Source: Phytohabitans maris (GTDB lineage Bacteria; Actinomycetota; Actinomycetes; Mycobacteriales; Micromonosporaceae). Taken from it: DNA of 64,000 bases. The notes under the pieces are model-generated. The model had not been told where the DNA came from. It worked only from the letters and a program-made list of their open reading frames with translations, and did no database searches. The translations under genes and the position numbers were made by a program. Positions 17,193 to 45,713 of this stretch are shown here, piece by piece. The first letter of the stretch is position 1; the number at the start of each line of letters is the position of its first letter. The stretch is from contig NZ_JAVHUY010000031.1 in NCBI RefSeq assembly GCF_031085175.1, positions 1 to 64,000 on the forward strand, read 5' to 3'.

Positions 17193-17197
17193 GACGG

Positions 17198-23364: not shown

Positions 23365-23365
23365 G

Positions 23366-24271: not shown

Positions 24272-24303
24272 GACGTACCTCCGGGTCTGGGCAGCTCAGC
24301 GTC

Positions 24304-24331: not shown

Positions 24332-24341
24332 GTCACATGGT

Positions 24342-30747: not shown

Positions 30748-31917
30748 TCAGCGAAACGCCTTCTCGCCGGTGAGGGCCTGGCCGATGGTCAGCTGGTGGA
30801 TCTCGGAGGTGCCCTCGTAGGTCAGCACGGACTCCAGGTTGGCGGCGTGCCGCATCAACGGGTACTCGTGGGTGATCCCGGCGGCACCGAGGATGGCCCG
30901 GCACTCGCGGGCGATCGCGATCGCCTCCCGGACCGAGTTGAGCTTGCCGAGGCTCACCTGCTCGGGGCGGAGCTGGCCGGCGTCCTTGAGGCGGCCCAGG
31001 TGGAGGGCGAGCAGCATGCCCTTGCCCAGCTCCAGGGTCATGTCGGCGAGCTTGAGCTGGGTGGCTTGGAACGCGGAGAGCGGGCGGTCGAAGACCTCCC
31101 GCTCTCCGGCGTAGGCCAGCGCCGTCTCCAGGCAGTCCCGGGCCGCGCCGAGCGCGCCGAAGGCGATGCCGAACCGCGCCTCGTTGAGGCAGGACAGCGG
31201 CCCGGACAGGCCGCGCGCCGCGGGCAGCGCGGCGGAGTCCGGCAGCCGCACGTCGTCGAAGACGAGCTCGCTGGTGACGGAGGCGCGCAGGGACATCTTG
31301 CGGGTGATCTCCGGCGCGGAGAAGCCGGGCGTGCCCGCGGGTACGACGAACCCGCGGATCGCGTCGTCGGTGCGGGCCCAGACCACCGCCACGTCGGCGA
31401 CCGACCCGTTGGTGATCCACATCTTGGTGCCGGAGAGGATCCAGTCGGAGCCGTCCCGGCGGGCGCGGGTGCGCATGCCGGCCGGGTTGGAGCCGTGGTC
31501 CGGCTCGGTCAGGCCGAAGCAGCCGATCGCCTCCCCGGCCGCCATCCGGGGCAGCCACTCCTGCTTCTGCTCGGGCGAGCCGTGCCGATGGATCGCGTAC
31601 ATGGCCAGCGACCCCTGCACCGAGACGAGCGAGCGCAGCCCCGAGTCGCCCGCCTCCAGCTCCAGGCAGGCCAGGCCGTACGCGGTGGCGCTGGTGCCGG
31701 CGCAGCCGTAGCCGTCCAGGTGCATGCCGAGCAGCCCGAGCGCGCCCAGCTCCCGGGCCAGCTCGCGGACGGGTGCGCTGCCGCGCTCGTACCAGTCGCC
31801 GACGTGCGGCCGGACCCGGTCGGCGACGAACCGGCGTACGACGTCCGCGATGGCCTTCTCCTCCTCGCTGAGCAGCGAGTCGACGGCGAAGAGGGCGAGG
31901 GGTGGCTGTGTCGACAT
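30748..31917 (-). CDS. acyl-CoA dehydrogenase, glutaryl-CoA dehydrogenase-like (389 aa)
   Basis: FAD-dependent dehydrogenase of the ACAD fold: CFGLTEPDHGSNPAGM, WILSGTKMWITNGSVAD, FDDVRLP, and the catalytic glutamate (about Glu368) in TYEGTSEIHQL. The C-terminal YEGT...IHQL...GQALTGEKAF pattern is that of glutaryl-CoA dehydrogenases, which convert glutaryl-CoA to crotonyl-CoA and CO2. It ends a minus-strand run of amine oxidase, ketimine reductase, ALDH and 2-oxoacid dehydrogenase genes, consistent with the last step of lysine breakdown. Confidence 0.88.
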   Translation of the reverse strand: MSTQPPLALFAVDSLLSEEEKAIADVVRRFVADRVRPHVGDWYERGSAPVRELARELGALGLLGMHLDGYGCAGTSATAYGLACLELEAGDSGLRSLVSVQGSLAMYAIHRHGSPEQKQEWLPRMAAGEAIGCFGLTEPDHGSNPAGMRTRARRDGSDWILSGTKMWITNGSVADVAVVWARTDDAIRGFVVPAGTPGFSAPEITRKMSLRASVTSELVFDDVRLPDSAALPAARGLSGPLSCLNEARFGIAFGALGAARDCLETALAYAGEREVFDRPLSAFQATQLKLADMTLELGKGMLLALHLGRLKDAGQLRPEQVSLGKLNSVREAIAIARECRAILGAAGITHEYPLMRHAANLESVLTYEGTSEIHQLTIGQALTGEKAFR

Positions 31918-31948
31918 TGGACGATCCTTCCGGGGTGCGGCGGCGGGC

Positions 31949-34087
31949 TCACGCCGCGAGGAGTGTGCGGGCGCGGTCGACGATCTGGCTCTCGGCGAGC
32001 AGGACAGCCCCGGCCGCCGGCCCGAGCGGCACGTACGAGTCGTCGCTGGTGACCCGCGCGACCCGGCCCGGGTAGCCGTGGTCGGCCAGCAGCGTGACCA
32101 CGGCCTCGGAGACGCCGCCGCTGCGCCGGGTCTCGTCGACCACGAGTACCCGGGGGAACGCCGCCGCCGCGCGCAGGATGTCCGCCTCCGGGAGCGGGGC
32201 GAGCCAGCGCAGGTCGAGCACAGCGCAGTCGATGCCGTCGCCGGCCAGGCGGTCCGCGGCGCGCAGGGACATCGGCAGGCCGTTGCCGAACGTGACGATC
32301 AGCAGGTCGGTGCCGTCGCGGTGCGAGCGGGCCCGGCCGAAGCAGTCCACCGCCGGGGCGGGCGCGCCGGTCCAGCCGTTGTCGCCGGGCTCGTACAGGT
32401 CGCGGGTGTGGTAGAGCGCGATCGGCTCCACCACGACGCAGACCCGGCCGTGCTCGCGGGCCAGCCGGACGCAGGAGCCGAGCAGGGCGGCGGCGTCCGA
32501 CGGGTGGCTGGGTACGCAGAGCACCAGCCCGGGGATGTCGCGGAGCACCGCCAGCGAGTTGTCGTTGTGGAAGTGGCCGCCGAAGCCGCGCTGGTAGGCG
32601 AGGCCGGCGATCCGTACGACCATGCCGTTGCGGTACTGGCCGTCGGAGAAGAACGCGAGCGAGGCGGCCTCGCCGCGCAGCTGGTCCTCGGCGTTGTGCA
32701 GGTACGCCAGGTACTGGATCTCGGGGATCGGCAGCAGCCCGGCGAGGGCGGCGCCGAGCGCGGTACCGAGGATGGACTGCTCGTCCAGCAGGGTGTCGAA
32801 GACGCGGGTGGCGCCAAAGCGCTTGCGCAGCCCGCGGGTCACGCCGTAGACGCCGCCCTTGGCCGCCACGTCCTCGCCGAAGACGACCGCTTCGCGGTGC
32901 TCGGCGAGCACGCCGGTGAGCGCGTCGTTGAGGGCCTGGGCGAGGGTACGGCCGGCGGCCGGCAGACCGTCCACTGTGGCGGGTGCCGGGGCGGCGGCGA
33001 CCGGCGGGTACGCGATCGGCCGGCGGACGGCGGCCGAGGAGTCCAGCCGCGCGGCGCCGACGAGCGCGCGGGCGCGGGACATCACCTCCTCGCGCGCGGC
33101 CTCGTAGCGGTGCAGGATCCCGGCCGGGGAGGCCAGGCCCCGGGCGACCATCCGGCGGGCGGTGGCGAGGAGCGGGTCGCGGGCGTAGTCGGCGACGATC
33201 TCGGCCCGGGAGCGGTAGGCGAGCTCGGCGTCGGAGCCGGCGTGCCCCATGAACCGGACCGTGCGCAGGTGCAGGATCACCGGCCGGCGCTCGGCGCGGA
33301 CGGTCTCGGCGGCGGACCGGGCCGCGGTGAGTACCGCCTCGGGGTCGGCGCCGTCGGCCGCCAGGTACTCGATCGCGGGAAAGCGGGAGAGCGCGAGCCG
33401 GATCCAGCCGGCCGGCGAGCGGGTGCTGATGCCGATGCCGTTGTCTTCGCAGACCACCAGCAGCGGCAGCGGTACCCCTTGGTGGGCGCACCACGCGGCG
33501 GTGTTGAGCGCGCCGGCGGCGGTCGAGTGGTTGACCGACGCGTCGCCGAGGCTGGTGACCACGACCGCGTCGGCCGGCCACGGCGCGGTCACGCCGGCGG
33601 CGGCCGCGCGGGGCAGCGCGAAGGCGAGCCCGACCGCGCGGGGCAGGTGCGACGCGATCGTGGAGGTCTGCGGGATGACGTGGTACGCGGGATGCCCGTA
33701 CACCTTGTGCCGCCCGCCGGAGATCGGGTCGTCGGCGGCAGCCGTCATGCCGCGCAGCACGTCGGCGACGGGTGTCGCGCCGGGCACCTGGCTTGCGCGG
33801 GCGGCGAAGAACCCGCCGGAGCGGTAGTGGAGCAGGGCCGGGTCGGTCGGTCGTAGGGCGAGCGCGACGGCGGCGTTGCTCTCGTGGCCGGCGGAGCCGA
33901 TCGTGTAGAAGCCCTCCCCCTTCTCCTGCAGCCAGCGGGCGGCGAAGTCGAGGTGCCGGCTCTGCAGCTGGGCGGTGAGGTACGCCGCCAGCAGGTCGGC
34001 GTCGACACCGCCCGGCGCGGCTTGCGGAGGCGTCTCGGTCCAGGAGCCGACCTGCCGCAGGAAGTGGTCGTCGATCGACTCGATCAT
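31949..34087 (-). CDS. 2-oxoacid dehydrogenase E1, fused alpha and beta subunits (712 aa)
   Basis: Thiamine-diphosphate enzyme. The alpha half (about 1-360) has the ThDP motif in SLGDASVNHSTAAGALNTAA...VCEDNG and HYRSGGFFAARA. The beta half has VVFGEDVAAKGGVYGVTRGL, LDEQSILGTALGAALAGLLP, FGNGLPMSLRAADRLA and LRWLAPLP. Fusion of alpha and beta is common in some actinobacteria. No E2 or E3 gene is in the window. ATG at 34087 shares a base with the ALDH stop (TGATG). In this operon 2-oxoadipate is the natural guess; branched-chain 2-oxoacids are the main alternative. Confidence 0.86.
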   Translation of the reverse strand: MIESIDDHFLRQVGSWTETPPQAAPGGVDADLLAAYLTAQLQSRHLDFAARWLQEKGEGFYTIGSAGHESNAAVALALRPTDPALLHYRSGGFFAARASQVPGATPVADVLRGMTAAADDPISGGRHKVYGHPAYHVIPQTSTIASHLPRAVGLAFALPRAAAAGVTAPWPADAVVVTSLGDASVNHSTAAGALNTAAWCAHQGVPLPLLVVCEDNGIGISTRSPAGWIRLALSRFPAIEYLAADGADPEAVLTAARSAAETVRAERRPVILHLRTVRFMGHAGSDAELAYRSRAEIVADYARDPLLATARRMVARGLASPAGILHRYEAAREEVMSRARALVGAARLDSSAAVRRPIAYPPVAAAPAPATVDGLPAAGRTLAQALNDALTGVLAEHREAVVFGEDVAAKGGVYGVTRGLRKRFGATRVFDTLLDEQSILGTALGAALAGLLPIPEIQYLAYLHNAEDQLRGEAASLAFFSDGQYRNGMVVRIAGLAYQRGFGGHFHNDNSLAVLRDIPGLVLCVPSHPSDAAALLGSCVRLAREHGRVCVVVEPIALYHTRDLYEPGDNGWTGAPAPAVDCFGRARSHRDGTDLLIVTFGNGLPMSLRAADRLAGDGIDCAVLDLRWLAPLPEADILRAAAAFPRVLVVDETRRSGGVSEAVVTLLADHGYPGRVARVTSDDSYVPLGPAAGAVLLAESQIVDRARTLLAA

Positions 34088-35688
34088 CAAGCGGCCGGGT
34101 CGGCGAGAGCAGCCGGCTCGGCGAGAGCGGCGTCATCGGTGAGGCGGAAGCCGGGGTCGGCGACGAGCTCGGCGACGTCCATCTGGGCCTTCTGCAGGCG
34201 GCCGGAGTAGTCCCAGTTCATCGACTGCCACCGGGTGAACTGGTCGAGCACCCAGGTGCCGGACTGGCGGCTGCCGTTCCCGGACTTGCCGTTGCCGCCG
34301 AAGGGCAGGTGTGCCTCGGCGCCGGACGTGGAGTTGTTGACGCTGACCATGCCGGCGCCGATCCCGCGCCGGAAGGTGAACGCGTCGTGCGGGTCGGTGG
34401 TGTAGATGGCCGAGGAGAGCCCGTAGCCGGGGGCGTTGGCGAGCCGGATCGCCTCGTCGAGGTCGCGGTAGGCGAGCACGCCGACGATCGGGCCGAACGT
34501 CTCGTTCTGGAAGATGTCGTCGTCCTCGCGGAGCCCGGCCACGATGGTCGGGTGGTAGTAGAGCCCGCCGGCCGGGTCGCCGACGAACCCGGGGCGCGGC
34601 CGCCCGGCGTCGATGCGCCCGAGGTGGGGTGAGCCGCTGACCGTGTGGTGCGGGCGGATCCAGCCGAGGTACTCCTCGAACCGGTCGGCGAAGCGCTGGT
34701 CGAGCATCGGGCCGTAGAGCACGTCCTGGAACGGGTCGCCGATCGCGGCGGCGCGGACGGCGGTGGCGAGGCGCTCCAGGAACTCGTCGTGGCGGGACTC
34801 GTGCACCAGTACCGTCCCGAGCGAGGTGCAGCGCTGCCCGGCGGTGCCGAAGCCGGAGAAGAGCGCTCCCTCGACGGCCAGGGCGAGGTCGGCGCTGGGC
34901 GTGACCACCATCGGGTTCTTGCCGCCGAGCTCCAGGCAGGGCGACTGGAGGTGGCGGCCGCAGAGCTCCCCGATCCGCGCGCCGACCGCGCTGGAGCCGG
35001 TGAAGCCGACCTTGTCGACCAGTCCGGCGTCGAGGGCGCCGGCGAGCCCCTGGTAGGTGGCGTCGCCGCCGGCGAGGACGAGGTTGAGCACGCCGTCCGG
35101 GAGCCCGCCCTTCTGGAACAGGGCGTAGAGGGCGGCGGCGGTGGCGGCGGAGTACTCGGCGGGTTTCCAGACGACCGTGTTTCCGGCCAGCAACGCCGGG
35201 ACGAGGTACCAGGACGGGACGGCGGCCGGGAAGTTGCCGGCGGTGACGACCGCGACCACGCCGACCGGGTTGCGGAAGGTGAACAGCTGCTTGTCCGGCA
35301 TCTCGGACGGGACGGTCTGTCCGTAGAGGCGGCGCCCCTCGCCGAGGAAGAAGTCGCAGGTGTCGACGATCTCGCGGACCTCGCCGAGCGCCTCGCGGTA
35401 GGGCTTGCCGATCTCCCGGGTCATGATCCGGGCGAGCGTCTCGGCGTTCTCCTCGACCAACCGTCCGATGTGGCCGATCGCCCGGCCGCGCACCGGTGCG
35501 GGCACGTCGGCCCAGGCCGGCTGGGCGCGGCGGGCGGACGCGCAGGCCGCGACGAAGAGGTCGGCGTCGCCGAGGGAGACCTCCGCGACCACCTCCCGGG
35601 TACGGGCCGGGTTGACCGAGGTGAGCCGGGGGCCCTCGCCCGCTCCGGCCGGCGCTCCGTCGATCTGGGATGTCACGAGGAGGGTCAT
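34087..35688 (-). CDS. aldehyde dehydrogenase, ALDH7 / aminoadipic-semialdehyde (P6C) dehydrogenase-like (533 aa)
   Basis: NAD(P)-dependent ALDH with Asn152 (GNFP in place of WNFP), Glu253 in LELGGKNP and catalytic Cys287 in GTAGQRCTS. The AGQRCT context and the NETFGPIVGVL and LPFGGNGKSGNG segments resemble ALDH7/AmaB enzymes acting on 2-aminoadipate 6-semialdehyde. Pairing with a ketimine reductase and an FAD amine oxidase supports that role. ATG overlaps the stop of the upstream gene (ATGA, 35685-35688). An alternative is 2-oxoglutarate semialdehyde from the nearby hydroxyproline genes. Confidence 0.85.
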   Translation of the reverse strand: MTLLVTSQIDGAPAGAGEGPRLTSVNPARTREVVAEVSLGDADLFVAACASARRAQPAWADVPAPVRGRAIGHIGRLVEENAETLARIMTREIGKPYREALGEVREIVDTCDFFLGEGRRLYGQTVPSEMPDKQLFTFRNPVGVVAVVTAGNFPAAVPSWYLVPALLAGNTVVWKPAEYSAATAAALYALFQKGGLPDGVLNLVLAGGDATYQGLAGALDAGLVDKVGFTGSSAVGARIGELCGRHLQSPCLELGGKNPMVVTPSADLALAVEGALFSGFGTAGQRCTSLGTVLVHESRHDEFLERLATAVRAAAIGDPFQDVLYGPMLDQRFADRFEEYLGWIRPHHTVSGSPHLGRIDAGRPRPGFVGDPAGGLYYHPTIVAGLREDDDIFQNETFGPIVGVLAYRDLDEAIRLANAPGYGLSSAIYTTDPHDAFTFRRGIGAGMVSVNNSTSGAEAHLPFGGNGKSGNGSRQSGTWVLDQFTRWQSMNWDYSGRLQKAQMDVAELVADPGFRLTDDAALAEPAALADPAA

Positions 35689-36674
35689 GCTGCTCCGTTC
35701 GCTGCGGTGGAGTCGGCTGCGGCCCGCTCCAGGATGGCCAGCGCCGCGGCGGCGTCCTGTACGCCGAGGCCGACGCTGTTGTAGAAGACGATGTCACCGC
35801 CGGCCGCCCGGGCTGGGGTGCCGTGCGCCACGACCGCGCCGAGCTCCAGGATCGCGGAGGGGTCGAGCCCGTGGTCGGCGACGGCGGCGACGACCGGGCC
35901 GGCCTGGCGCAGGGCGGTCGGGAGGTGGTCGACGACGACGCGTCCGGCGCGGGCGGCGAACTCCCCGCTCACTTCGAGCCGGTCGGGGGCGAACGAGCCG
36001 ATGCTCACCACCGTGGCGCCCGGCTTGACCCAGTCCGGCTCCAGCAGCGGGGTCGGGCTGGTGGTGCAGCAGACCACCACGTCGGCCCCGCGTACGGCGC
36101 CGGCGAGCCCGGCGACCGGGGTCACCGGTACGCCGGCCGGGGAGCCGGTGGCGAGCGCGGCCGCCCGGGCCGGGTCGCGGTCCCAGAGCATGATCTCGGC
36201 GACTCCACAGTGGTGGGTCAGCGCGCGCAGGTGGGCGGCGCCCTGTACGCCGCAGCCGGCGACGGCCACCCGCAGCGGCGTCGCCGGGGCGAGGTGCCGT
36301 ACGGCCACCGCGGTCGCGGCGGCGGTGCGCAGCTCGGTGATGGCGTTGCCGTCGAGGATCGCGGCCACGGCACCGGTCCTCGCGTCGAGCACCACGACCG
36401 TCGCCTGTACCGTCGCCAGCCCGCGGGCGGCGTTCTCGTCGTTGACCCCGCCGAGCTTGCAGACCGTACCGGTGCCGGGGCGCAGCCGCGCGGTATAGCT
36501 GAACGTGACCGCGTCGCCGCCGGCCCCGTCGAACACGATCCGCGGCCCGAGGTCGGCGAGCCCCTCGCCGAGGCAGCGGAACGCCTCCCGTTGCGAGGCG
36601 TACGCGGTGTCCGGGTCGAACAGGCGCCGGACCGCGGCGTCGTCGTAGCGCGGCGGTGCCGCCGTTGCCGTCAT
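35685..36674 (-). CDS. ornithine cyclodeaminase / mu-crystallin family, probable cyclic ketimine reductase (329 aa)
   Basis: NAD(P)-binding VAVAGCGVQGAAHLRAL, an upstream KLGGVNDENAARGL lysine region, DGNAITELRTAAATAVA and the ADVVVCCTTSPTPLL loop identify the OCD/mu-crystallin family. Mu-crystallin reduces piperideine-2-carboxylate to pipecolate, which fits between a D-lysine or pipecolate source and the ALDH7-like enzyme. ATG at 36674 is preferred over a start four codons earlier because GAGGAG lies 4 bases before it. Confidence 0.86.
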   Translation of the reverse strand: MTATAAPPRYDDAAVRRLFDPDTAYASQREAFRCLGEGLADLGPRIVFDGAGGDAVTFSYTARLRPGTGTVCKLGGVNDENAARGLATVQATVVVLDARTGAVAAILDGNAITELRTAAATAVAVRHLAPATPLRVAVAGCGVQGAAHLRALTHHCGVAEIMLWDRDPARAAALATGSPAGVPVTPVAGLAGAVRGADVVVCCTTSPTPLLEPDWVKPGATVVSIGSFAPDRLEVSGEFAARAGRVVVDHLPTALRQAGPVVAAVADHGLDPSAILELGAVVAHGTPARAAGGDIVFYNSVGLGVQDAAAALAILERAAADSTAANGAA

Positions 36675-36693
36675 GTCGCTCCTCACGGTGTGG

Positions 36694-37806
36694 CTATATG
36701 ACGTTGGCTTCGGGGCGGGTACGCGCGCCGGCGAAGCGGTCCGCCGACAGTACGCCGAGGTCGAGCGCGGGCGGCCGGCCGGCGACCAGGTCGGCGAGGT
36801 ACTCCCCCACCACCGGCGCCTGCTGAAACCCGTGGCCGGAGAAGCCGGTGGCGTAGTAGAAGCCGGCCGGCTCGGTGGCCGCGCCGACCATCGCGTTGTG
36901 GTCGGGGCTCATCTCGTAGTTGCCCGACCATCCACTTCGGATCGGCAGGTCGGCGAGGGCGGGCAGGCGCGCGACCGCGTACGGCGCCAGGTCGGCCGCG
37001 GTCGGCCAGGGACCGCCGACGATGAGCCCCGGACCCTCGGGGTGCAGGTAGAGGCCGGTGGCGAAGTCGACGGTCAGCGGCAGCGAGGCGGGCAGCGCGC
37101 CGCGCTGGTCGACGAAGTAGATGTACCGCCGCTCGGCGCGCACCGGCAGGTCGACGCCGGCGGTGGCGGCGATCGCCGGCGAGTCGACGCCGGCCGCGCA
37201 GATCACCCGGGAGGTGGGCAGCAGACCCCGGTCGGTCTCCACGCCGGTGACCCGGCCGCCCTCGGTGCGTACCGCCCGGGCGGCGTGGCCGACCAGCGTG
37301 CGGGCGCCGAGGCGGCGGGCCGCGGCGGCGTACCCCTGCACCACCGCCTCGGGCGTGGCGACGCCGTCGATCGGGCAGAACGACGCGCCGGCGAGGCCGT
37401 CGAGGCAGAGGCCGGGCACCCGTTCGGCGGCCTCGGAAAGGCTCATCATCCGGGTCGGCGCGCCGAGCGAGCGCTGCAGGGCGGTCGCCGCCTCGAACGC
37501 CGGCATCATCCGCTCCTCCAGCAGGAACAGGTATCCGTTCTGCCGGAAGCCGATGTCGATGTCGAAGTCGTCGCGGAAGCGGGCGAAGCGCTCGATCCCC
37601 AGCAGCGAGATCTGGACGTTGAGCGCGTCCGAGTACTGCACGCGGATCCCGCCGGCCGCGGCCGAGGTCGAGCCGGCACCCAGCGTGTCGCGTTCCAGCA
37701 GGACGGCGTCGGTGAGGCCGGCGGCGGCCAGGTGATAGAGCGTGCTCACCCCGATGACGCCGCCACCGATCACGACGGCGCTGGCGGCGCGCAGTTCGGA
37801 CTCCAC
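36694..37806 (-). CDS. FAD-dependent amine oxidase/dehydrogenase (SoxB/FOXRED1-like), candidate pipecolate or D-amino-acid oxidase (370 aa)
   Basis: DAO-type flavoprotein: FAD-binding AVVIGGGVIGVSTLYHLAAA, then GAGSTSAAAGGIRVQYSDAL near residues 43-62, SRVICAAGVDSP and the C-terminal YYATGFSGHGFQQAPVVGEY. GTG at 37806 is preferred over TTG 37824 because GAGGGGGG sits 5-6 bases before it. First gene of a five-gene minus-strand unit with a recognisable promoter. Oxidation of pipecolate to piperideine-6-carboxylate would feed the ALDH downstream. Confidence 0.86.
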   Translation of the reverse strand: MESELRAASAVVIGGGVIGVSTLYHLAAAGLTDAVLLERDTLGAGSTSAAAGGIRVQYSDALNVQISLLGIERFARFRDDFDIDIGFRQNGYLFLLEERMMPAFEAATALQRSLGAPTRMMSLSEAAERVPGLCLDGLAGASFCPIDGVATPEAVVQGYAAAARRLGARTLVGHAARAVRTEGGRVTGVETDRGLLPTSRVICAAGVDSPAIAATAGVDLPVRAERRYIYFVDQRGALPASLPLTVDFATGLYLHPEGPGLIVGGPWPTAADLAPYAVARLPALADLPIRSGWSGNYEMSPDHNAMVGAATEPAGFYYATGFSGHGFQQAPVVGEYLADLVAGRPPALDLGVLSADRFAGARTRPEANVI

Positions 37807-37834
37807 CCGTTCCCCCCTCGTCAACGTTCCTGCA

Positions 37835-37864
37835 TCTATACCGATCGCCAGCCAGCTTGGTCAA
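37835..37864 (-). promoter_or_regulatory. promoter TTGACC-N18-TATAGA for the minus-strand catabolic unit
   Basis: On the minus strand -35 TTGACC (37864-37859) and -10 TATAGA (37840-37835) are separated by 18 bases, placing transcription start about 20 bases before GTG 37806. The -35 lies inside CTTGACCAAGC, which recurs on the other strand at 37968-37978. Confidence 0.65.
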
Positions 37865-37968
37865 GGCTCTTGTCCGTTGCAATCCCCTTGTTTCGTACGT
37901 GTTTCGCCTCTAGGGGCCAGCTCAGCGACCCGTTCGGTCATCCGTCGTACCAATCTCGGTAATGGGTC

Positions 37969-37998
37969 TTGACCAAGCCTCGGCGCCGCTGGTTGAAT
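37969..37998 (+). promoter_or_regulatory. candidate promoter TTGACC-N18-TTGAAT for the divergent importer operon
   Basis: -35 TTGACC (37969-37974) and -10-like TTGAAT (37993-37998) with the same 18-base spacer as the opposite promoter and the same CTTGACCAAGC context. It would give a 5' leader of about 225 bases before ATG 38231. Confidence 0.5.
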
Positions 37999-38230
37999 GG
38001 CCGCTCATATGCGGGCCGTGCCTCCGTCCACGCGGCCTGACCAGCAAGAACACGCAGCCTGACCCGCAACAACAAGCCGTCCACAGCGACCGCTCCCGGC
38101 CGCCGTACTCATCGACATCGTCGCGACGTTCGCGGCTAGGCCGGCCCGCCCAGGCGGGGCGGCCCGCGCAGCAGGTGACCGATATTCCCGGCGCGGAGAC
38201 GCGCCGCAGTGCTTTGGACAGGAGACCGTC
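37999..38230. other. probable 5' leader of the importer operon
   Basis: About 230 bases with no gene. It contains G+C-rich complementary runs around 38140-38175 that could fold, but I recognise no known riboswitch class. The ribosome site AGGAG lies just before ATG 38231. Confidence 0.4.
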
Positions 38231-39343
38231 ATGGCGTTGAGATCCGGATCGGCGGTACCGCCCACCGGCGCCCGGCGGGCGGCAGATCGGCGGCGCTCGG
38301 CCGGCGCCGGCCTCGCCGCCCTGCTCGCCGTCGGGCTGGCCGCGAGCGGCTGCACGAGCAGCGGGACGGCCAGCGGCGGGGACGAAGGCACCCGCACGCT
38401 GATCGTCACCTCGTTCGGCGGCTCGTTCGAGACCGCGCAGAAGCAGGTGCTCATCCCCGAGTTCGAGAAGCGCTACAACGCCAAGGTCGAGCTCACCACG
38501 CTGCTGTCCGGGCCGGCGCTGGCCAAGCTCAAGGCCCAGGGCGCCAACAGCGGCTTCGACGTGGTCCAGTTCTCCGGCGGGCAGGAGGTCGAGGCCGGCA
38601 CCCTCAACCTCATCGCCCCGGTCGACGCCGCCGCCGTCCCGAACGCGGCCAGCGTGGTCGAGCAGGCCAAGCGCGGCCAGTACGCGCCGGCGTTCGCGCT
38701 CAACTCGACCGGCATCATCTACAACACCGAGAAGGTCACGCCCGCCCCGACGTCGTGGAACGACCTCTACGACACCAGGTACAAGGGGCGGGTCGGGCTG
38801 CCGGACATCTCCAACACCAGCGGCCTGAACACGCTGTACATGCTCAACCAGATCAACGGCGGCTCCGGCACGAACATGAAGCCCGGGTACGACGCGGTGC
38901 GCCGGCTGATGCCCAACCTGCACTCGGTGTACCGCGACGGCGCCACGATGACCCAGCTGCTCGGCGACGGCACCATCGACATGGCGGTCTTCGACAGCGG
39001 GTACGCGTACCTGCTGCGCCAGCAGGGGCAGAAGGTCGGCTTCGTGCTGCCCAAGGACGGCTCGCTCGTGTACGGCCTGACGATGAACGTCGTGGCCGGC
39101 AGCAAGAACGCCGACCTCGCGCAGAAGCTCATCGACCTCGCGCTCGAGCCGCAGATCCAGGTGGAGTTCGCCAAGGCGGCCGGCTACGTGCCGACCAACA
39201 CCGGCGCGACCCTCCCCGACGACCTGGCGCAGACGCTGCCGGTGCGCTCCGAGATCGAGCGGCTCTCGGTCGCCGACGGCGCCGTGGTCAGCGCCAACCG
39301 GGCCGCCTGGACCGAAGAGTGGAACAAGATTGTCGCCAAGTGA
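38231..39343 (+). CDS. ABC substrate-binding lipoprotein, PotD/PotF-like (370 aa)
   Basis: Signal with lipobox LAASGC (Cys about 41), then a Gly/Ser linker and a polyamine-type binding domain (TLIVTSFGGSFETAQKQVLI, NSTGIIYNTEKV, WNDLYDTRYKGRVGLPDISN). The importer operon continues with two permeases and an ATPase. As an N-acyl-D-amino-acid deacylase is encoded in the same operon, an N-acylated or D-configured amino acid is a reasonable ligand guess rather than a polyamine. Confidence 0.92.
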   Translation: MALRSGSAVPPTGARRAADRRRSAGAGLAALLAVGLAASGCTSSGTASGGDEGTRTLIVTSFGGSFETAQKQVLIPEFEKRYNAKVELTTLLSGPALAKLKAQGANSGFDVVQFSGGQEVEAGTLNLIAPVDAAAVPNAASVVEQAKRGQYAPAFALNSTGIIYNTEKVTPAPTSWNDLYDTRYKGRVGLPDISNTSGLNTLYMLNQINGGSGTNMKPGYDAVRRLMPNLHSVYRDGATMTQLLGDGTIDMAVFDSGYAYLLRQQGQKVGFVLPKDGSLVYGLTMNVVAGSKNADLAQKLIDLALEPQIQVEFAKAAGYVPTNTGATLPDDLAQTLPVRSEIERLSVADGAVVSANRAAWTEEWNKIVAK

Positions 39344-39353
39344 CCGCGCCGGC

Positions 39354-40232
39354 GTGACCGCCGGCCGGACCCGGGGTGGAGCCAGGCGCGCCGCCTGGCT
39401 CCCCCTGGCACCCGTCCTGACGCTCTACGCGATCCAGTTCGTGGTGCCGATGGCGCTGGTCGCGGTCACCAGCTTCCGGCGCCACGAGAGCGCCGGCCAG
39501 ATGGGCGGCTTCACCACCGACAACTTCACGAAGATCCTCCAGGATCCCTACTACCTCGGCATGCTCGGCCGTTCACTGCTGCTGGCCGGCGAGACGGCGG
39601 TGCTCACCGCGGTCCTGGGCTACCCGATCGCGTACGCGCTCGCCCGCGGGCCGCGCTGGCTCAAGGTCGTACTGCTCGTGGTCGTGATGGTGCCGCTGAT
39701 GACCAGCTCGGTCGTCCGGTCGTTCGGCTGGATGGTGCTGTTCGCCCGGGACGGCCTCTTCTCCACCCTCGCCGGGCCGCTCGGCGACGGGCCGGCCGGC
39801 CTGATGTACACCAGCACCGGCGTGCTCGTCGCGACCGCGCACGTGCTGCTGCCGTTCATGGTCCTGACCCTGTACGGCGTGCTCGACCGGCTCAACCCGA
39901 CGCTCGTGCACGCCTCGATGAACCTCGGCGCGTCGCGGACCGGGACGTTCTTCCGGATCACCCTGCCGCTGTCGATGAACGGCGTGGTCGCCGGCATGCT
40001 GCTGGTCTTCGCGACCGCGACGAGCGCCTTCGTGACCCCGCAGCTGATCGGCGGCACCCGCTACCGGGTCGCCGCGACCGAGATCTACGAGCAGTCGATC
40101 AACCTGCTCAACTGGCCGCTGGCCAGCGCCATGGCGGTACTGCTGGTGGCGATCGCGCTGCTCACCATGGCCGTCTACACGCGACTGTCCCGGGACACGG
40201 GCGGCTCCGGCGCGACCGGGATCATCGGATGA
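39354..40232 (+). CDS. ABC transporter permease, PotB-like (292 aa)
   Basis: Six predicted membrane helices, with MTSSVVRSFGWMVLFARDG and the EAA loop NPTLVHASMNLGASRTGTFF typical of PotB. Start uncertain: GTG at 39354 (10 bases after the previous stop) is listed; TTG at 39330 overlapping the binding-protein gene is also possible. Neither has a good ribosome site. Confidence 0.9.
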   Translation: MTAGRTRGGARRAAWLPLAPVLTLYAIQFVVPMALVAVTSFRRHESAGQMGGFTTDNFTKILQDPYYLGMLGRSLLLAGETAVLTAVLGYPIAYALARGPRWLKVVLLVVVMVPLMTSSVVRSFGWMVLFARDGLFSTLAGPLGDGPAGLMYTSTGVLVATAHVLLPFMVLTLYGVLDRLNPTLVHASMNLGASRTGTFFRITLPLSMNGVVAGMLLVFATATSAFVTPQLIGGTRYRVAATEIYEQSINLLNWPLASAMAVLLVAIALLTMAVYTRLSRDTGGSGATGIIG

Positions 40233-41059
40233 CCCGCCGCCTGCTCACCTGGGCCGAGTCGGCCGTCCTGCCGGTCGTGGTGACGGTGCTCGTCCTGTTC
40301 CTGGCCGCGCCGCTGGTGGTGCTCGTCGCGACCGCCTTCACCGAGACCCGCTACCTGGCCTTCCCGCCGCACGGCTTCACGCTCACCTGGTTCGAAGGGG
40401 TGCTGACCGACCCCACCTGGCGGGCCGCGGCCTGGAACAGCCTCATCATCGCGGCGATGAGCGTCGGCGTCGCGGCGGTCGTGGGCGCGCCGGCGGCGAT
40501 CGTCCTGGCCCGCCGCGGGGTCCGGGCCGCGTCGTCGCTCACCCTGCTGATCATGGTACCGATCATGGTGCCGTCGATCATGTACGTGCTCGGGCTCATG
40601 CTCGGCTACAACGAGCTCGACGTCACCGTGCCGACCTGGGGGATCGTGCTCGCACTCGCCGTGCTGACCACCCCGTACCTGGTGCGCACGCTGATGGCCG
40701 CGCTGGAGCAGCTCGACCCGGCGCTGGAGGAGGCCGCGCTGAGCCTGGGCGCGAGCCGGCTGCGGATCTGGGTGGAGATCCTGCTGCCCAACGTCGCCAA
40801 GTCGTTCTTCTCCGGCCTCTCGCTCGCGTTCATCCTCGCCTTCGACGAGCTGGTCGTGCCGCTCTTCCTGGCCGGGCCGGACGTGCCCACGCTCCCGGTC
40901 CGCATCTACAGCTCGGTCGCCTACAACGTCGACCCGTCGGTGGCCGCGGTCTCCTCGCTCCTCGTGCTCGTCAGCGCGCTCGTCGCGGTCCTCTCCGCCC
41001 GCGACAACCTGCGCAAGCCCGTGACCCGAAAGGACGGTACGCCCGATGGCGGAGCTTGA
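40229..41059 (+). CDS. ABC transporter permease, PotC-like (276 aa)
   Basis: ATG overlaps the previous stop (ATGA, 40229-40232). Six helices, PotC-type loop LAFPPHGFTLTWFEGVL and EAA loop EEAALSLGASRLRIWVEILLPN. Partner of the PotB-like permease. Confidence 0.92.
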   Translation: MTRRLLTWAESAVLPVVVTVLVLFLAAPLVVLVATAFTETRYLAFPPHGFTLTWFEGVLTDPTWRAAAWNSLIIAAMSVGVAAVVGAPAAIVLARRGVRAASSLTLLIMVPIMVPSIMYVLGLMLGYNELDVTVPTWGIVLALAVLTTPYLVRTLMAALEQLDPALEEAALSLGASRLRIWVEILLPNVAKSFFSGLSLAFILAFDELVVPLFLAGPDVPTLPVRIYSSVAYNVDPSVAAVSSLLVLVSALVAVLSARDNLRKPVTRKDGTPDGGA

Positions 41060-42119
41060 ACTGGTGGGCCTGTCCAAGCGGTACGGGCGGGACCTGGTCC
41101 TCGACGACGTGTCGCTCTCGGTACAGGAGGGCGAGCTGGTGACCGTGCTCGGGCAGAGCGGCTCGGGCAAGACCACGATGCTGCGCAGCATCGCCGGCTT
41201 CGTCACGCCGTCCGGCGGCGACATCCTCGTACACGGGCGCAGCGTGCTGAACGCCCCGATCAACCAGCGCGGCATCGGCATCGTCTTCCAGAACTACGCG
41301 CTGTTTCCGCACCTGACCGTCCGGCAGAACGTCGGGTACGGGCTGCGGGTCCGGCGGCTGCCCCGGCACGAGATCCGCGAACGGGTGGACCGGGAGCTGG
41401 AGCGGGTGCTGCTCAGCGCGTACGCCGACCGCAAGCCCGCCCAGCTCTCCGGCGGCCAGCAGCAGCGGGTCGCGGTGGCCCGGGCGCTGGTGCTGCGGCC
41501 GCGGATCGTGCTGTTCGACGAGCCGTTCAGCAACCTCGACGCGATGCTCCGGGAGAGCCTGCGGCGGGAGCTGCGCGACCTGCAAAAGCGCCTGCGGTTC
41601 ACGGCGATGTTCGTGACCCACGACCAGCGCGAGGCGATGGCGCTGGCCGACCGGGTCGCCGTCATGCGCGGCGGCCGGCTGGTGCAGATGGGCGCCCCCA
41701 CCGACGTGTACGAGCGGCCGGCGCACCGGGCGATCGCCGAGCTGCTGGGGCGGGCCAACCTGCTGGACTGCCAGACCGCGGCCGGCGAGGACGGGCGGGC
41801 GCTGCTGCGCTGGCACGGGCACACGCTGCGGACCGACGACGACCTCGGTGCCGCCGGTGACGGCGCCTGCGTGCTGCTGCGCCCCGAGCACGTCGCGGTG
41901 CGCCCGGGAGCGCCCGACGCGCCGGCGCCGAACCAGCTCGGCGGCGTGCTGTCCAGTGTGGAGTACCACGGCCCGTCGCGCCTCGCGGTCATCAGCGAGC
42001 CCGGTGGCGGCACGCTCCTGGCCGACCTGCGCTCCGGCCCGGCCGACCCGTACCTCGCACCCGGCGACCCGGTGACCGCCTCGTGGCCCTCGGCCGCGGT
42101 GCGCGTCATCGACGCCTGA
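41046..42119 (+). CDS. ABC transporter ATP-binding protein, PotA-like (357 aa)
   Basis: Walker A GQSGSGKTT, signature LSGGQQQRVAVARAL, Walker B IVLFDEPFSNLD, H-loop FVTHDQREAM and a TOBE-type C-terminus (LLRPEHVAVRP). Overlaps the PotC-like gene by 14 bases. Completes a self-contained importer. Confidence 0.94.
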   Translation: MAELELVGLSKRYGRDLVLDDVSLSVQEGELVTVLGQSGSGKTTMLRSIAGFVTPSGGDILVHGRSVLNAPINQRGIGIVFQNYALFPHLTVRQNVGYGLRVRRLPRHEIRERVDRELERVLLSAYADRKPAQLSGGQQQRVAVARALVLRPRIVLFDEPFSNLDAMLRESLRRELRDLQKRLRFTAMFVTHDQREAMALADRVAVMRGGRLVQMGAPTDVYERPAHRAIAELLGRANLLDCQTAAGEDGRALLRWHGHTLRTDDDLGAAGDGACVLLRPEHVAVRPGAPDAPAPNQLGGVLSSVEYHGPSRLAVISEPGGGTLLADLRSGPADPYLAPGDPVTASWPSAAVRVIDA

Positions 42120-42167
42120 CCCCCCGACCGTCCAACCAGGACCCGTCCGTCCAACTAGGAGGAAACC

Positions 42168-43871
42168 ATGTCCAGGCAGCTCGACCTGCTGATCACCAAC
42201 GGGCTCGTGTTCGACGGCAGCGGAAGGCCGGGATACCGCGCCGACGTGGGCGTACGCGGCGACGAGATCGTCCTGGTGGGTCGGGCCGGGGACGTGCCCG
42301 CCGCGCGTACCGTCGACGCGGCCGGCAAGGTGGTCTGCCCCGGCTTCGTCGACATCCACGGCCACTCCGACTATCTGCTGCTCATGGACCCATCCTGCGA
42401 CTCGAAGATCACCCAGGGGATCACCACCGACGTGGGCGGCAACTGCGGCCTCTCGCCGGGGCCGTTCTCCGACGTCTGGTACGTCGACTGGTGGGTGGAC
42501 AACCCCCGCAACTTCCACTCCGTGCCGATCACGCAGGGGCGGGAGATCCTGCGCGAGCACGGGCTGGAGCTGGACTGGCAGGACCTCGGCGGCTTCTTCG
42601 ACCGGCTGGACGGCGCCGGGCTCGGCCCCAACTACGCCGGCCTGGTCGGGCACTACGTGCTGCGCTCCACCGCGTACGGCGAGCCGGGCACCCAGCCGGC
42701 CCGCCCGGCGACCCGGGACGAGATCGGCAGGATGAAGGACCTCGTCCGGCAGGCGATGGAGCAGGGCGCCCGGGGCGTCTCCTGCGCGTTCCACCACACC
42801 GACCCGGAGCTGGACGTGTCGCCGGAGGAGTTTCGCGAGCTGGGCCGGGTGGTCGCCGAGTACGACGGGATCTTCGCGTTCCACCTGCGCTCGTACACCG
42901 ACCTGCTGCTCTCCAGCGTGCGCGAGGCGATCGAGCTGGCCGACACCGTCGGCGTGCGGACCACCGTCTCGCACCTGATGGCCGACGGCAAGGAGTACTG
43001 GGGCAAGCTCTCCTACGCGCTGGACAAGATCGCCAAGGCGCGGGCCGAGGGCGTGCCGATCTGGACCGACGTCATGCTCACGCTCCAGGCCCGCAACTAC
43101 ATGTCCGGCGGGCTGCTGACGATGATGCCCGACGCCACCGTCGCGGCGGCCGGGGAGGACTGGGCCGGCTACTTCGCCGACGCGAGCCGGGTGGCCGACA
43201 CCGCCGAGGCGATCCGCAAGGGCGGTGCCAACCGCTGGTACAAGGCGCGCTTCAACCCCTCCTCGTACTGGCCGCTCTGGGACGAGATGCTCCGGGTGAT
43301 CCGCAGCCCGCGCCAGCCGGAGTTCGAGGGGCTGATGCTCTACGACGTCGGCCGCCTGCTCGGCTGCGACTCGTACGAGGCGATGTGCCACCTGCTCCGG
43401 ATCAACGACGGCGACGCCGACACCATCCTGGAGCGCTCGGACGAGGGCGACATCGTCGACGTGCTCCAGCACCCGATGAGCATGGTCGGCACCGACGGCA
43501 GCCCGGTCCTGCCGATCCGCAGCCCGCGCCCGCCGAACCCGCGCCTCTACGCCTCCTACCCCATGCTCTTCGGGCACTACGTGCGGGAGCTGGACGCGCT
43601 GCGGTTCGAGGAGGCGGTCATGAAGTCGACCTCGATCCCGGCCCAGTTCCTGGGGCTGCGCGACCGGGGCGAGCTGCGCCCGGGCTACAAGGCCGACATC
43701 GTCGTCATGGACGCCGCCCAGGTGCGCGGCCACCAGCACCTGACGGCCCGGCCGAACGACTACCACGAGTACTCCGAAGGCGTCACCCACGTCGCCGTCA
43801 ACGGCCAGCTCGTGGTCGACGGCGGCGAGCTGACCGCCAACCGCCCCGGACAGGTGCTGCGCCTGCGCTGA
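42168..43871 (+). CDS. N-acyl-D-amino-acid deacylase / D-aminoacylase family amidohydrolase (567 aa)
   Basis: Amidohydrolase with the metal motif HGHSD (His64, His66, Asp68) and the GNCG motif (Cys93) that marks D-aminoacylases, then AFHLRSYTD, TTVSHLMADG, VGTDGSPV and the GxLRPGYKADIVVMD C-terminus. Strong ribosome site TAGGAGGAAACC before ATG. It would hydrolyse N-acyl-D-amino acids taken up by the preceding importer, giving free D-amino acids for the divergent FAD oxidase/ketimine reductase unit (inference). Confidence 0.9.
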   Translation: MSRQLDLLITNGLVFDGSGRPGYRADVGVRGDEIVLVGRAGDVPAARTVDAAGKVVCPGFVDIHGHSDYLLLMDPSCDSKITQGITTDVGGNCGLSPGPFSDVWYVDWWVDNPRNFHSVPITQGREILREHGLELDWQDLGGFFDRLDGAGLGPNYAGLVGHYVLRSTAYGEPGTQPARPATRDEIGRMKDLVRQAMEQGARGVSCAFHHTDPELDVSPEEFRELGRVVAEYDGIFAFHLRSYTDLLLSSVREAIELADTVGVRTTVSHLMADGKEYWGKLSYALDKIAKARAEGVPIWTDVMLTLQARNYMSGGLLTMMPDATVAAAGEDWAGYFADASRVADTAEAIRKGGANRWYKARFNPSSYWPLWDEMLRVIRSPRQPEFEGLMLYDVGRLLGCDSYEAMCHLLRINDGDADTILERSDEGDIVDVLQHPMSMVGTDGSPVLPIRSPRPPNPRLYASYPMLFGHYVRELDALRFEEAVMKSTSIPAQFLGLRDRGELRPGYKADIVVMDAAQVRGHQHLTARPNDYHEYSEGVTHVAVNGQLVVDGGELTANRPGQVLRLR

Positions 43872-43911
43872 CGCGGGGCGAACGGGAAGGGTAAGGATCG
43901 GTCTTCGACGT

Positions 43912-44688
43912 ATGCTGCACAGCGTGTTTCGCCCGGTACGCACTCGGCGCCCGTTCGAGGAGGCCGTCGCCCAGATCGCCGATGCCATCCGCGCCGGCGA
44001 CCTGGGCCTCGGCGACCGGCTCCCACCGGAGCGGACCCTCGCCACCCAGCTCGACATCAGCCGCCCCACCCTCCGGGAGGCGGTCAAGGTGCTGGTCAAC
44101 GCCGGCGTGCTCGACGTCAAGCCGGGGCCGGCCGGTGGCATCTTCGTCCGCTCCGACGTCATCCCGCGCGAGGTCAACGCCGAAGACTGGCAGGTGCGCA
44201 TCGGCGAGGTGACCGACCTGCTCGAAGCGCGCCGGCTCATCCAGCCGCGGGTGGCGCAGCTCGCCGGGCTGCGGGCGACCGAGGCCGACTTCGAGACGAT
44301 GTCGACGACCCTCGACCTGCTGGGCGGCAGCATCAAGGACCGCAGTCGCTTCCTCCAGCTCGACGAGCGCTTCCAGCTCGCCATCGCCCGCGCGGCGCAC
44401 AACCGCGTGCTGCTGGAGCAGATGCGCAACCTGCTCTACCAGCTGCGCAGCGCCAAGGACTACGCCCTGCGCGACGGCATCGCCGACTCGCAGTGGGCGC
44501 TGGACTCGCTCAACCGGCTGCTGCGGGCCATCATGCGGCGCGACCCGCGCCTGATCGAGCAGGAGATGGACGAGCATCTGTCCTATCTGGAGAAACTCTG
44601 GGCCGAGGAGACCAGCCGGGCGCAGGTCCGCGAGATCCCCGAGTTCATGATGCCGTTTCGCGATCGGCGGTCGGCGCCCGGCGGTTGA
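43912..44688 (+). CDS. GntR/FadR-type regulator with FCD domain (258 aa)
   Basis: Winged helix LGDRLPPERTLATQLDISRPTLREAVKVLVNAGVLDVK (residues about 36-70) and an FCD domain (LLEARRLIQPRVAQLAG, LDERFQLAIARAAHNRVL, MDEHLSYLEKLW). ATG start. It closes the importer/deacylase operon and overlaps the convergent LysR gene by 44 bases. Likely controls this operon and perhaps the divergent catabolic unit. Confidence 0.92.
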   Translation: MLHSVFRPVRTRRPFEEAVAQIADAIRAGDLGLGDRLPPERTLATQLDISRPTLREAVKVLVNAGVLDVKPGPAGGIFVRSDVIPREVNAEDWQVRIGEVTDLLEARRLIQPRVAQLAGLRATEADFETMSTTLDLLGGSIKDRSRFLQLDERFQLAIARAAHNRVLLEQMRNLLYQLRSAKDYALRDGIADSQWALDSLNRLLRAIMRRDPRLIEQEMDEHLSYLEKLWAEETSRAQVREIPEFMMPFRDRRSAPGG

Positions 44689-45607
44689 TCCGGCGGCCGA
44701 GGCTGCCGGCGGCCCGCCGCAGCGCGTCGACCGTGGCGGGCACCAGCGGTGTCGCGCGGTCCGGGCGGTGCAGCACGAAGACCTCCCGCCGGGCCGGCGC
44801 GCCGCGCGGGCCGGCCGCCGGGCGCTGGTGGACCCCGCTGGCGGTGCCGAGGGCGTCCGCCAGCGCCGGTACGAGCGCGACGCCGAGGCCGGCGCGGACC
44901 AGCTCGCGGACGACCGTGTAGTCGTCGCTGCGGAACGCGACCCGGGGCGTGAACCCGGCGTCGGCGCAGAGCCGGGCGAGGTTTCGCGCGCCGGCGCTGG
45001 TCTCCCGGCTGGCGATCCAGGTCTCGCCGGCGAGGTCGGCCAGGCCCCAGGACGGCCGGGTCACCACCGGGTGGTCCGCGCCGACCGTCAGCCGCAGCGG
45101 GTCGTCCAGCAGCGGCGTGGCGACCACGTCCGGCGGCCACCGGCGCGGGCTCAGCGGGTAGCGGTACACCACCGCCACGTCGACCGCGCCGCTCGCCAGG
45201 GCGGCGACCAGGTCGTCCGGCTCCCCCTCGTCGAGCAGCACCGCCAGGTCCGGAGCGCGGCGCAGCAGCCGGGCGATGGCGCCGGGAACGATCGCCGCGC
45301 TCGCGGTCGGGAAGCTGCCGACCCGGACCACCCCGCTCGCCCCGGCGGCCAGCGCCCGCGCGTCCCGCTCGACGGCGGTGAGCTGGTCGACCAGGCCGGT
45401 GCTGCGGCCGGCCAGGTGGCGCGCGGCGGTCGTCGGGCGGGCGCTGCGGGCCCCGCGCTCGAACAGGACCAGGCCGGTCGCCCGCTCCAGCGCGGTCATC
45501 TGCTGCGAGACCGCCGAGGCCGTGTAGCCCAGCGAGGCCGCCGCGGCGGCGAACGAGCCCGTCGCGACCACCTCGGCGAGCGTCCGCAGGTGGTGCACGT
45601 TGAGCAT
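44645..45607 (-). CDS. LysR-family transcriptional regulator (320 aa)
   Basis: Winged helix HHLRTLAEVVATGSFAAAAA, LGYTASAVSQQMTALERATG, and a LysR effector domain (VVRVGSFPTASAAIVPGAIA, GETWIASRETSAGARNLARL). ATG 45607 lies inside a dyad that is probably its own operator; a GTG two codons earlier is possible. Divergent from the Glu/Leu dehydrogenase gene, its likely target. Confidence 0.92.
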   Translation of the reverse strand: MLNVHHLRTLAEVVATGSFAAAAASLGYTASAVSQQMTALERATGLVLFERGARSARPTTAARHLAGRSTGLVDQLTAVERDARALAAGASGVVRVGSFPTASAAIVPGAIARLLRRAPDLAVLLDEGEPDDLVAALASGAVDVAVVYRYPLSPRRWPPDVVATPLLDDPLRLTVGADHPVVTRPSWGLADLAGETWIASRETSAGARNLARLCADAGFTPRVAFRSDDYTVVRELVRAGLGVALVPALADALGTASGVHQRPAAGPRGAPARREVFVLHRPDRATPLVPATVDALRRAAGSLGRRINRRAPTADRETAS

Positions 45608-45625
45608 TAGCACATCTTATGCTCA
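45601..45625. promoter_or_regulatory. 25-bp dyad covering the LysR start codon
   Basis: The arms TGAGCATTAG (45601-45610) and CTTATGCTCA (45616-45625) match at 9 of 10 positions around CACAT. The dyad includes ATG 45607, and on the minus strand its TAAGAT could serve as the -10 for a leaderless lysR transcript. A typical location for an autoregulatory LysR site that also controls the divergent gene at 45714. Confidence 0.55.
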
Positions 45626-45713
45626 CCGGGTCAGGTTTGCGCCCATCGCGGGTTCCCCCACCGGTCCACCGGCTGGCAGCGTGATCACGTCAGCGGTACG
45701 ACGGAGGTGGGCG

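Follow-up and report, generated by a model that had tools for sequence, protein, structure and literature searches.

A gene block of Phytohabitans maris predicted to channel a pipecolate- or lysine-derived compound to glutaryl-CoA, and a possible modular pathway in actinobacteria

We analyzed 64,000 nucleotides of the Phytohabitans maris genome (assembly GCF_031085175.1, contig NZ_JAVHUY010000031.1, positions 1 to 64,000; hereafter the window) and find that 14 genes at 30748-48231 form a functional unit that is conserved in one congener (genome G003). It is likely that this block catabolizes a pipecolate- or lysine-derived compound via pipecolate to glutaryl-CoA. The proposal draws on the gene content and family membership of the block, its conservation in the congener, and partner genes that exclude each other in other genomes at both ends of the segment from Δ1-piperideine-6-carboxylate (P6C) to 2-oxoadipate. 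We infer every reaction, and the imported substrate, from sequence. A compound would be imported by a PotD/PhnS-type ABC system and might be hydrolyzed by an amidohydrolase; piperideine-2-carboxylate (P2C) would be reduced to L-pipecolate by a protein of the ornithine cyclodeaminase (OCD)/mu-crystallin family; a FAD oxidase would convert L-pipecolate to P6C, which opens to 2-aminoadipate 6-semialdehyde (AASA); and an aldehyde dehydrogenase (ALDH) would turn AASA into L-2-aminoadipate. A Glu/Leu-type dehydrogenase would then give 2-oxoadipate, a fused E1 together with E2/E3 encoded elsewhere would give glutaryl-CoA, and a glutaryl-CoA dehydrogenase (GCDH) would give crotonyl-CoA. An initial annotation of this DNA had proposed a route through pipecolate and P6C/AASA to glutaryl-CoA, and its core is backed by the partner patterns, by the similarities of the acyl-CoA dehydrogenase (ACAD) and by the block in the congener.

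The eleven genes named in that annotation are present where it placed them and correct at the family level. All are open, their GC contents at third codon positions are 0.93-0.98, and profile scans bear out the Pfam families; start codons were chosen by a codon model trained partly on these same genes. The edges then given, 30748-44688, do enclose them but are too narrow for the functional unit. In the congener, 14 genes from ACAD (30748) through MmgE/PrpD (48231) keep an identical order at 82-97% identity, and the LysR, Glu/Leu-type dehydrogenase and MmgE/PrpD genes therefore belong to the unit. Beyond its ACAD gene, 19.9 kb of the congener held no match above 90 bits to any called window gene, and in 19.5 kb on the PrpD side the sole matches above 90 bits were to ABC genes at 37-45% identity. 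Successive minus-strand genes, five in all from 36694-37806 to 30748-31917, lie 19, -4, -4 and 31 bp apart and therefore probably form one operon; spacings between the six plus-strand genes (38231-44688) are 10, -4, -14, 48 and 40 bp. Reading the two divergent units together, as first suggested, holds up: both lie in the single block of the congener, and the FAD oxidase (E 1e-60) and close amidohydrolase (at least 97% identity) are both present in two and both absent from four of six genus genomes, where other amidohydrolase matches are 35-37% identical. Further, genes for the FAD oxidase, OCD protein, ALDH, Glu/Leu-type dehydrogenase, LysR regulator and E1 recur together in other genera, so their gathering is more than chance. 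The MmgE/PrpD protein has no assigned step in the proposed route.

The ALDH is the common element of the comparison. Searching at E 1e-140 and including the window's own genome in both samples, we found orthologues in 56 of 397 order genomes and in 71 of the 396 genomes sampled across the phylum. We mapped 60 loci (numbered with L), picked by rank and variety and not randomly; they cover 40 of the other 55 order genomes with the orthologue and, through 20 of the loci, 19 of the other 70 from the phylum. A separate set of 80 loci was fetched with the E1, and in 15 of these the ALDH is present with at least 60% identity; some species may be in both sets. Entry-side partners were scored within 9 kb of the ALDH and exit-side partners anywhere in the locus. 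We predict that the ALDH is an AASA/P6C dehydrogenase. Its best NCBIfam model is L-P6C dehydrogenase (NF050084, 345 bits), followed by alpha-ketoglutaric semialdehyde dehydrogenase (331 bits), and its orthologues adjoin L-lysine 6-transaminase (LAT) in other genomes. The earlier description as ALDH7-like stands in part, as the next-ranking structures, Pcd (298 bits) and antiquitin (273 bits), suggest Pcd and ALDH7 as the nearest characterized families, but the closest solved relative is the aldehyde dehydrogenase 6FJX, presumably from Thermus and with no role assigned to it (505 bits), and the equivalog cut-off is missed.

LAT converts L-lysine to P6C/AASA, and pipecolate oxidase converts pipecolate to P6C. 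Among the 60 loci, LAT is found in 21 and the FAD oxidase in 12, never both (Fisher one-sided p 0.003). The same holds for the 50 loci in which the ALDH is flanked by 4 kb or more on either side (15, 12 and 0; p 0.007) and for the 15 E1-fetched loci (5, 6 and 0; p 0.04). Such alternation beside the same ALDH is predicted if both enzymes feed a shared product, P6C. The three LAT proteins that we scanned clear the TIGR03251 cut-off of 521 bits with scores of 674-692, while in the genome of the window none of 15 LAT-family matches passes it, the best reaching 149 bits. The FAD oxidase, first taken to catalyze an initial amine oxidation, is thus predicted to be better read as an L-pipecolate oxidase.

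The OCD protein looks like a ketimine reductase, not a cyclodeaminase, in agreement with its first description as mu-crystallin-like. It scores 108 bits to the mu-crystallin-type structure 4BV8 and 107 to a pyrroline-2-carboxylate (Pyr2C) reductase, against 78 for ornithine cyclodeaminase 1U7H and 62 for lysine cyclodeaminase, and the catalytic-Asp position of the G-x-D motif (presumably Asp228 of cyclodeaminases) is Phe in 14 of 14 aligned proteins. L-lysine could enter directly as L-pipecolate if the protein were a lysine cyclodeaminase, and an APC-type amino acid permease family does lie near OCD in L128, L131 and L135 (one member scanned); given the Asp position and the scores, we regard this as very unlikely. 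Alanine dehydrogenase 1VLL has Asp at the same position, as does a different OCD homologue beside the FAD oxidase in Kribbella (L050), which is outside the 14 aligned and nearest to alanine dehydrogenase.

The aminoadipate transaminase was initially expected to come from elsewhere. Rather, the missing enzyme is probably the Glu/Leu-type dehydrogenase at 45.7-46.9 kb, just outside the original limits and within the conserved block. Its homologues occur in 12 of the 60 ALDH loci, 11 of them with the FAD oxidase and none with LAT. Both ELFV domains are present, and the K-GG-x-R, T-W/Y-K and GGAK motifs are kept in 19 of 19 aligned proteins, the window's included; in the PDB it scores 170 bits to glutamate dehydrogenases and 92 to leucine dehydrogenases. 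The K-GG-x-R lysine of glutamate dehydrogenase binds the side-chain carboxylate, which argues for an acidic substrate such as 2-aminoadipate. We predict 2-aminoadipate as the preferred substrate, with glutamate also possible. In L127, a locus without the E1, a 448-amino-acid protein (6744-8090) is encoded between the FAD oxidase and this dehydrogenase; it looked by eye like a VOC protein, but neither Pfam (at 1e-5) nor the PDB (at 0.01) gave a match, and that label was dropped.

At the exit from 2-oxoadipate, a second exclusion is seen. The fused E1 (E1_dh/Transket_pyr/Transketolase_C) occurs in 21 of the 60 loci, a thiamine diphosphate (TPP)-enzyme family and/or a class III CoA-transferase family in 14 (9 hold both families), E1 with either in none, and neither set in 25 (p 9e-4); the 50 flanked loci give 19, 12, 0 and 19 (p 0.001), all these p values being a guide only. 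Membership of the two families was assigned by BLAST clustering, with one member of each scanned: the CoA-transferase is closest to the succinate-glutarate CoA-transferase model (345 bits, cut-off 750), and among its 25 best matches the TPP enzyme is closest to acetolactate-synthase/2-oxoacid-decarboxylase-like models, below cut-off. The absence of any overlap is expected if both sets consume 2-oxoadipate, and it fits the two being alternative ways from 2-oxoadipate to glutaryl-CoA. LAT is the partner in 8 of the 14 TPP/CoA-transferase loci, the FAD oxidase in 3 and the Glu/Leu-type dehydrogenase without FAD oxidase in 1, with 2 lacking a scored partner, which suggests that entry and exit vary separately. 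The CoA-transferase lies in the E1-less ALDH loci L126, L133, L134, L138, L144, L146, L152, L153, L155 and L162, accompanied by the TPP enzyme in all but L133, a possible decarboxylase/glutarate CoA-transferase exit.

The best NCBIfam models of the fused E1 are pyruvate dehydrogenase (PDH) E1 beta, below cut-off, and its architecture is not of the DHTKD1/OGDH type, which we take to be that of the known 2-oxoadipate dehydrogenase. E2/E3 had been expected from elsewhere, and four PF00198 loci in other parts of the genome do encode E2 domains. HglS was considered for the 2-oxoadipate step and set aside, as the genome of the window has no PF07063 match. A close GCDH lies within five genes of the E1 in 8 of 103 E1 loci (the window, G003, L021, L029, L033, L068, L073 and L122); in L021, L029 and L033, a mycobacterial cluster, the fused E1 is accompanied by an amidohydrolase and a GCDH homologue of 73-75% identity, and the ALDH is missing. 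A GlcD-like FAD-linked oxidase family is found within five genes of the E1 in L020, L022, L129, L130, L131, L132 and L140.

The ACAD had been called glutaryl-CoA-dehydrogenase-like, and both structure ranking and residues agree. It scores 634 bits to 3SF6 and 630 to 3SWO, both glutaryl-CoA dehydrogenases and presumably mycobacterial. Nine of its top ten PDB chains (346-634 bits) are named (putative) glutaryl-CoA dehydrogenase and the tenth, 4W9U, is named just acyl-CoA dehydrogenase (369 bits); the eleventh-ranked chain drops to 226 bits. The Arg and catalytic Glu, which we take to be Arg94 and Glu370 of the human enzyme, align with 3SF6 in DSGLRSLVSVQ and TYEGTSE. Another chain named glutaryl-CoA dehydrogenase, 3MPI, reaches only 175 bits, and no NCBIfam ACAD model passed (GlutCoADH_Des 191 bits, cut-off 470; best FadE 229, cut-off 600); the GCDH model apparently represents another branch.

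The amidohydrolase is nearest to N-acyl-D-glutamate deacylase 3GIP (217 bits) and D-aminoacylase 1M7J (190 bits) and keeps the motifs of their metal site. The SHHK motif of these two solved relatives, with the substrate-binding Lys of D-aminoacylase, reads SHLM here, and there is an extra segment near residues 300-375. It was first proposed that N-acyl-D-lysine is imported, deacylated to D-lysine, oxidized to P2C and passed into the pipecolate route. The family, the kept metal site, the joint presence and absence with the FAD oxidase in the genus and the ketimine reductase that D-lysine oxidation would call for all suit this idea. However, the SHHK lysine is replaced, the block has no D-lysine oxidase or transaminase unless its single FAD oxidase serves, which would leave no pipecolate oxidase, and the other mapped loci, G003's own excepted, hold no amidohydrolase homologue above 60 bits. 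With the amidohydrolase outside the conserved core, this starting compound was not borne out, and we consider it unlikely.

Alternatively, the amidohydrolase and importer may handle an unrelated amide and have come to lie with the pipecolate operon through chance or a recent transfer. Within the samples searched, the close amidohydrolase is found in two genomes only. An order sample of 397 genomes, which cannot have included G003, gave one genome with a match at E 1e-100, and a phylum sample of 296 gave four at 1e-60, the three others being 33-35% identical. Yet the two halves form one conserved block with two palindromes in the divergent promoter region, and G003 matches the window at 92-97% identity in the importer, amidohydrolase and FCD genes compared with 82-94% for the rest, making this quite improbable. 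The 424-bp divergent region holds two CTTGRYCAAG sites, the only two in 64 kb (0.06 expected, for a pattern picked after being seen), both kept in G003. A regulator motif common to all clusters was rejected, since TTG-N2-CAA lies between genes in only 7 of 18 clusters (window, L105, L022, L023, L027, L028, L129) and the full CTTG-N2-CAAG in the window, L105 and L027; we keep it as a genus-level candidate. A different Amidohydro_3 protein (one member scanned) is encoded within five genes of the E1 in ten loci (L020, L074, L079, L139, L143, L145, L149, L150, L151, L158).

Several points weigh against the proposed functions. The FAD oxidase reaches 36 bits with the L-pipecolate oxidase model AmaA (NF050086, cut-off 600), so its function rests on context; the ALDH, at 345 bits, falls far under the equivalog cut-off of 730; and the OCD protein misses both P2C/Pyr2C reductase models (NF004793, 147 bits, cut-off 322; NF045512, 108 bits, cut-off 400), its best NCBIfam model being the generic OCD family (149 bits, cut-off 417). 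There is no clear P2C-forming enzyme among the block genes, and outside the genus the samples searched gave no conserved association for the half with importer and amidohydrolase. On the survey side, partner identity thresholds were fixed after the maps were seen, counts are uncorrected for shared ancestry, and the exit-side exclusion was tested on the loci where it was first noticed; 17 of the 60 loci lack any entry-survey partner (2 of these carry the CoA-transferase family) and 8 have E1 and LysR only. Of the 103 E1s, 100 were placed in a tree, where the window E1 groups with that of G003 and 15 others in a clade of 17 (support 1.0), and none of these 15 has such an ALDH nearby; the substrate of the window E1 could therefore differ, and the role by context is firmer for other genomes. 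Among 18 genomes searched, PF07063 passes its cut-off in G377 alone, which holds this HGLS gene elsewhere and an E1 cluster (L129), so the two routes may coexist within one genome.

Finally, nearly every block enzyme has a C5 (proline/glutamate) counterpart, and the block could be read as a proline/ornithine route of Pyr2C reductase, L-proline dehydrogenase, pyrroline-5-carboxylate dehydrogenase, glutamate dehydrogenase and 2-oxoglutarate dehydrogenase E1. The FAD oxidase is nearest in the PDB to 1Y56_B (166 bits), listed as sarcosine oxidase and, we assume, a subunit of an archaeal L-proline dehydrogenase; the Glu/Leu-type dehydrogenase is nearest to glutamate dehydrogenases, and a hydroxyproline-type module lies at 21.7-27.4 kb. 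But a C5 route leaves no place for the glutaryl-CoA dehydrogenase, and the ALDH orthologues adjoin L-lysine 6-transaminase. We therefore hold it to be highly improbable and retain the pipecolate route.

That neighboring module (21698-27391) comprises FCD/GntR, proline-racemase-family, DHDPS-family, DAO oxidase and fused 2Fe-2S/FAD proteins; the racemase-family protein has both cysteine motifs and 368 bits against a cut-off of 376 for 4-hydroxyproline epimerase. The module is absent from the 19.9 kb of G003 beyond ACAD and was left out of the unit. In Actinomadura L023 and L028, homologues of its DAO, DHDPS and FAD proteins adjoin the pipecolate cluster, joined in L028 by a homologue of the racemase. 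A DAO homologue of 55-56% identity directly follows an OCD-family gene in L089 and L090, the latter gene being 36-38% identical to the window's. These placements make the D-imino-acid dehydrogenase of the module a candidate source of P2C. The DAO gene (24342-25571) is a candidate for the D-lysine transaminase/oxidase step of a P. putida-type pathway. A second importer, with a SBP_bac_6-type binding protein, permeases and ATPase (by eye), lies at 14652-19439 with a short-chain dehydrogenase/reductase gene and an adjoining LysR-like gene.

Table 1. Features of the block in the window, with predicted roles
Feature	Position	Strand	Basis
Glutaryl-CoA dehydrogenase (ACAD), predicted glutaryl-CoA to crotonyl-CoA + CO2	30748-31917	-	634 bits to 3SF6
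Fused E1 alpha-beta 2-oxoacid dehydrogenase, predicted 2-oxoadipate dehydrogenase E1	31949-34090	-	E1_dh + Transket_pyr + Transketolase_C; adjoins ALDH and LAT or FAD oxidase in other genera
ALDH, predicted AASA/P6C dehydrogenase	34087-35688	-	Best NCBIfam L-P6C dehydrogenase; PDB matches; adjoins LAT in other genomes
OCD/mu-crystallin family protein, predicted ketimine reductase (P2C to L-pipecolate)	35685-36674	-	Nearest PDB 4BV8; Phe at catalytic-Asp position
DAO-family FAD oxidase, predicted L-pipecolate oxidase	36694-37806	-	PF01266; 1Y56_B 166 bits; alternates with LAT beside ALDH
CTTGGTCAAG, candidate operator	37856-37865	.	CTTGRYCAAG match; kept in G003
CTTGACCAAG, candidate operator	37968-37977	.	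CTTGRYCAAG match; kept in G003
Solute-binding protein, PotD/PhnS-like	38231-39343	+	SBP_bac_8; best NCBIfam PotD 68 bits, below cut-off
ABC permease	39354-40232	+	BPD_transp_1, PotB-like
ABC permease	40229-41059	+	BPD_transp_1
ABC ATPase with TOBE_2, PhnT/PotA-like	41046-42119	+	
D-aminoacylase-like amidohydrolase, substrate uncertain	42168-43871	+	3GIP 217 bits, 1M7J 190; metal-site motifs kept, SHHK lysine replaced
FCD/GntR regulator	43912-44688	+	
LysR regulator, in conserved core	44645-45607	-	Homologues beside ALDH/E1
Glu/Leu/Phe/Val-type dehydrogenase, predicted 2-aminoadipate dehydrogenase	45714-46895	+	ELFV domains; nearest PDB glutamate dehydrogenases, 170 bits
MmgE/PrpD protein	46879-48231	+	17-bp overlap with dehydrogenase gene; 82% identical in G003 block

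Taken further, these patterns lead us to a tentative proposal, which we put forward with less than even confidence: a modular actinobacterial lysine/pipecolate pathway built round one P6C/AASA dehydrogenase. Its entries may be swapped between LAT and a ketimine reductase with pipecolate oxidase, and its 2-oxoadipate exits between the fused E1, as a new type of 2-oxoadipate dehydrogenase, and a TPP decarboxylase with glutarate CoA-transferase. In the pipecolate branch a new glutamate-dehydrogenase-like L-2-aminoadipate dehydrogenase may replace the transaminase; within the genus, importer and amidohydrolase would add an amide of a lysine-derived imino acid, and the neighboring D-imino-acid dehydrogenase may supply P2C, inverting D-pipecolate to L. 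If true, fused E1 and short Glu/Leu-type dehydrogenase groups of Actinobacteria would be assigned to 2-oxoadipate and 2-aminoadipate, the use of pipecolate by actinobacteria without LAT would be accounted for, and a set of genomes with swapped entry and exit modules would be available for testing. Titles and abstract openings in the open-licence literature, a scope that leaves out most subscription journals, gave none on such a gene set, on a fused E1 acting on 2-oxoadipate or on a bacterial 2-aminoadipate dehydrogenase. According to an excerpt of one study, 2-aminoadipate and pipecolate also serve such organisms as precursors for antibiotics and immunosuppressants (PMC9854754), and their breakdown could matter in production strains.

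Among known systems, the D-lysine/pipecolate pathway of Pseudomonas putida comprises, in the portions of the reports consulted, D-lysine aminotransferase, DpkA, L-pipecolate oxidase, P6C dehydrogenase and HglS (PMC6667623, PMC7286885). It shares with the block the logic of P2C to L-pipecolate, P6C/AASA, 2-aminoadipate and 2-oxoadipate, whereas the block has an OCD-type reductase, a Glu/Leu-type dehydrogenase at the deamination step, and a fused E1 with GCDH instead of HglS. DpkA, we assume, is of another family than OCD. A legend names amaB the pipecolate oxidase and amaA the P6C dehydrogenase, the reverse of the NCBIfam name (PMC6667623). With the LAT-Pcd route of the Streptomyces clavuligerus type the block has the P6C/AASA dehydrogenase step in common, but the genome of the window has no LAT above cut-off and its ALDH scores 298 bits to Pcd compared with 505 to 6FJX. 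D-aminoacylase 1M7J and N-acyl-D-glutamate deacylase 3GIP share family and metal-site motifs with the block's amidohydrolase, which differs from them in the replaced SHHK lysine and the added segment. The animal lysine pathway, in which mu-crystallin is the ketimine reductase, likewise runs from 2-oxoadipate to glutaryl-CoA and crotonyl-CoA (DHTKD1, GCDH); its E1 is presumably of the DHTKD1/OGDH type, whereas that of the block is an alpha-beta fusion with domains of the PDH/branched-chain 2-oxoacid dehydrogenase (BCKDH) type.

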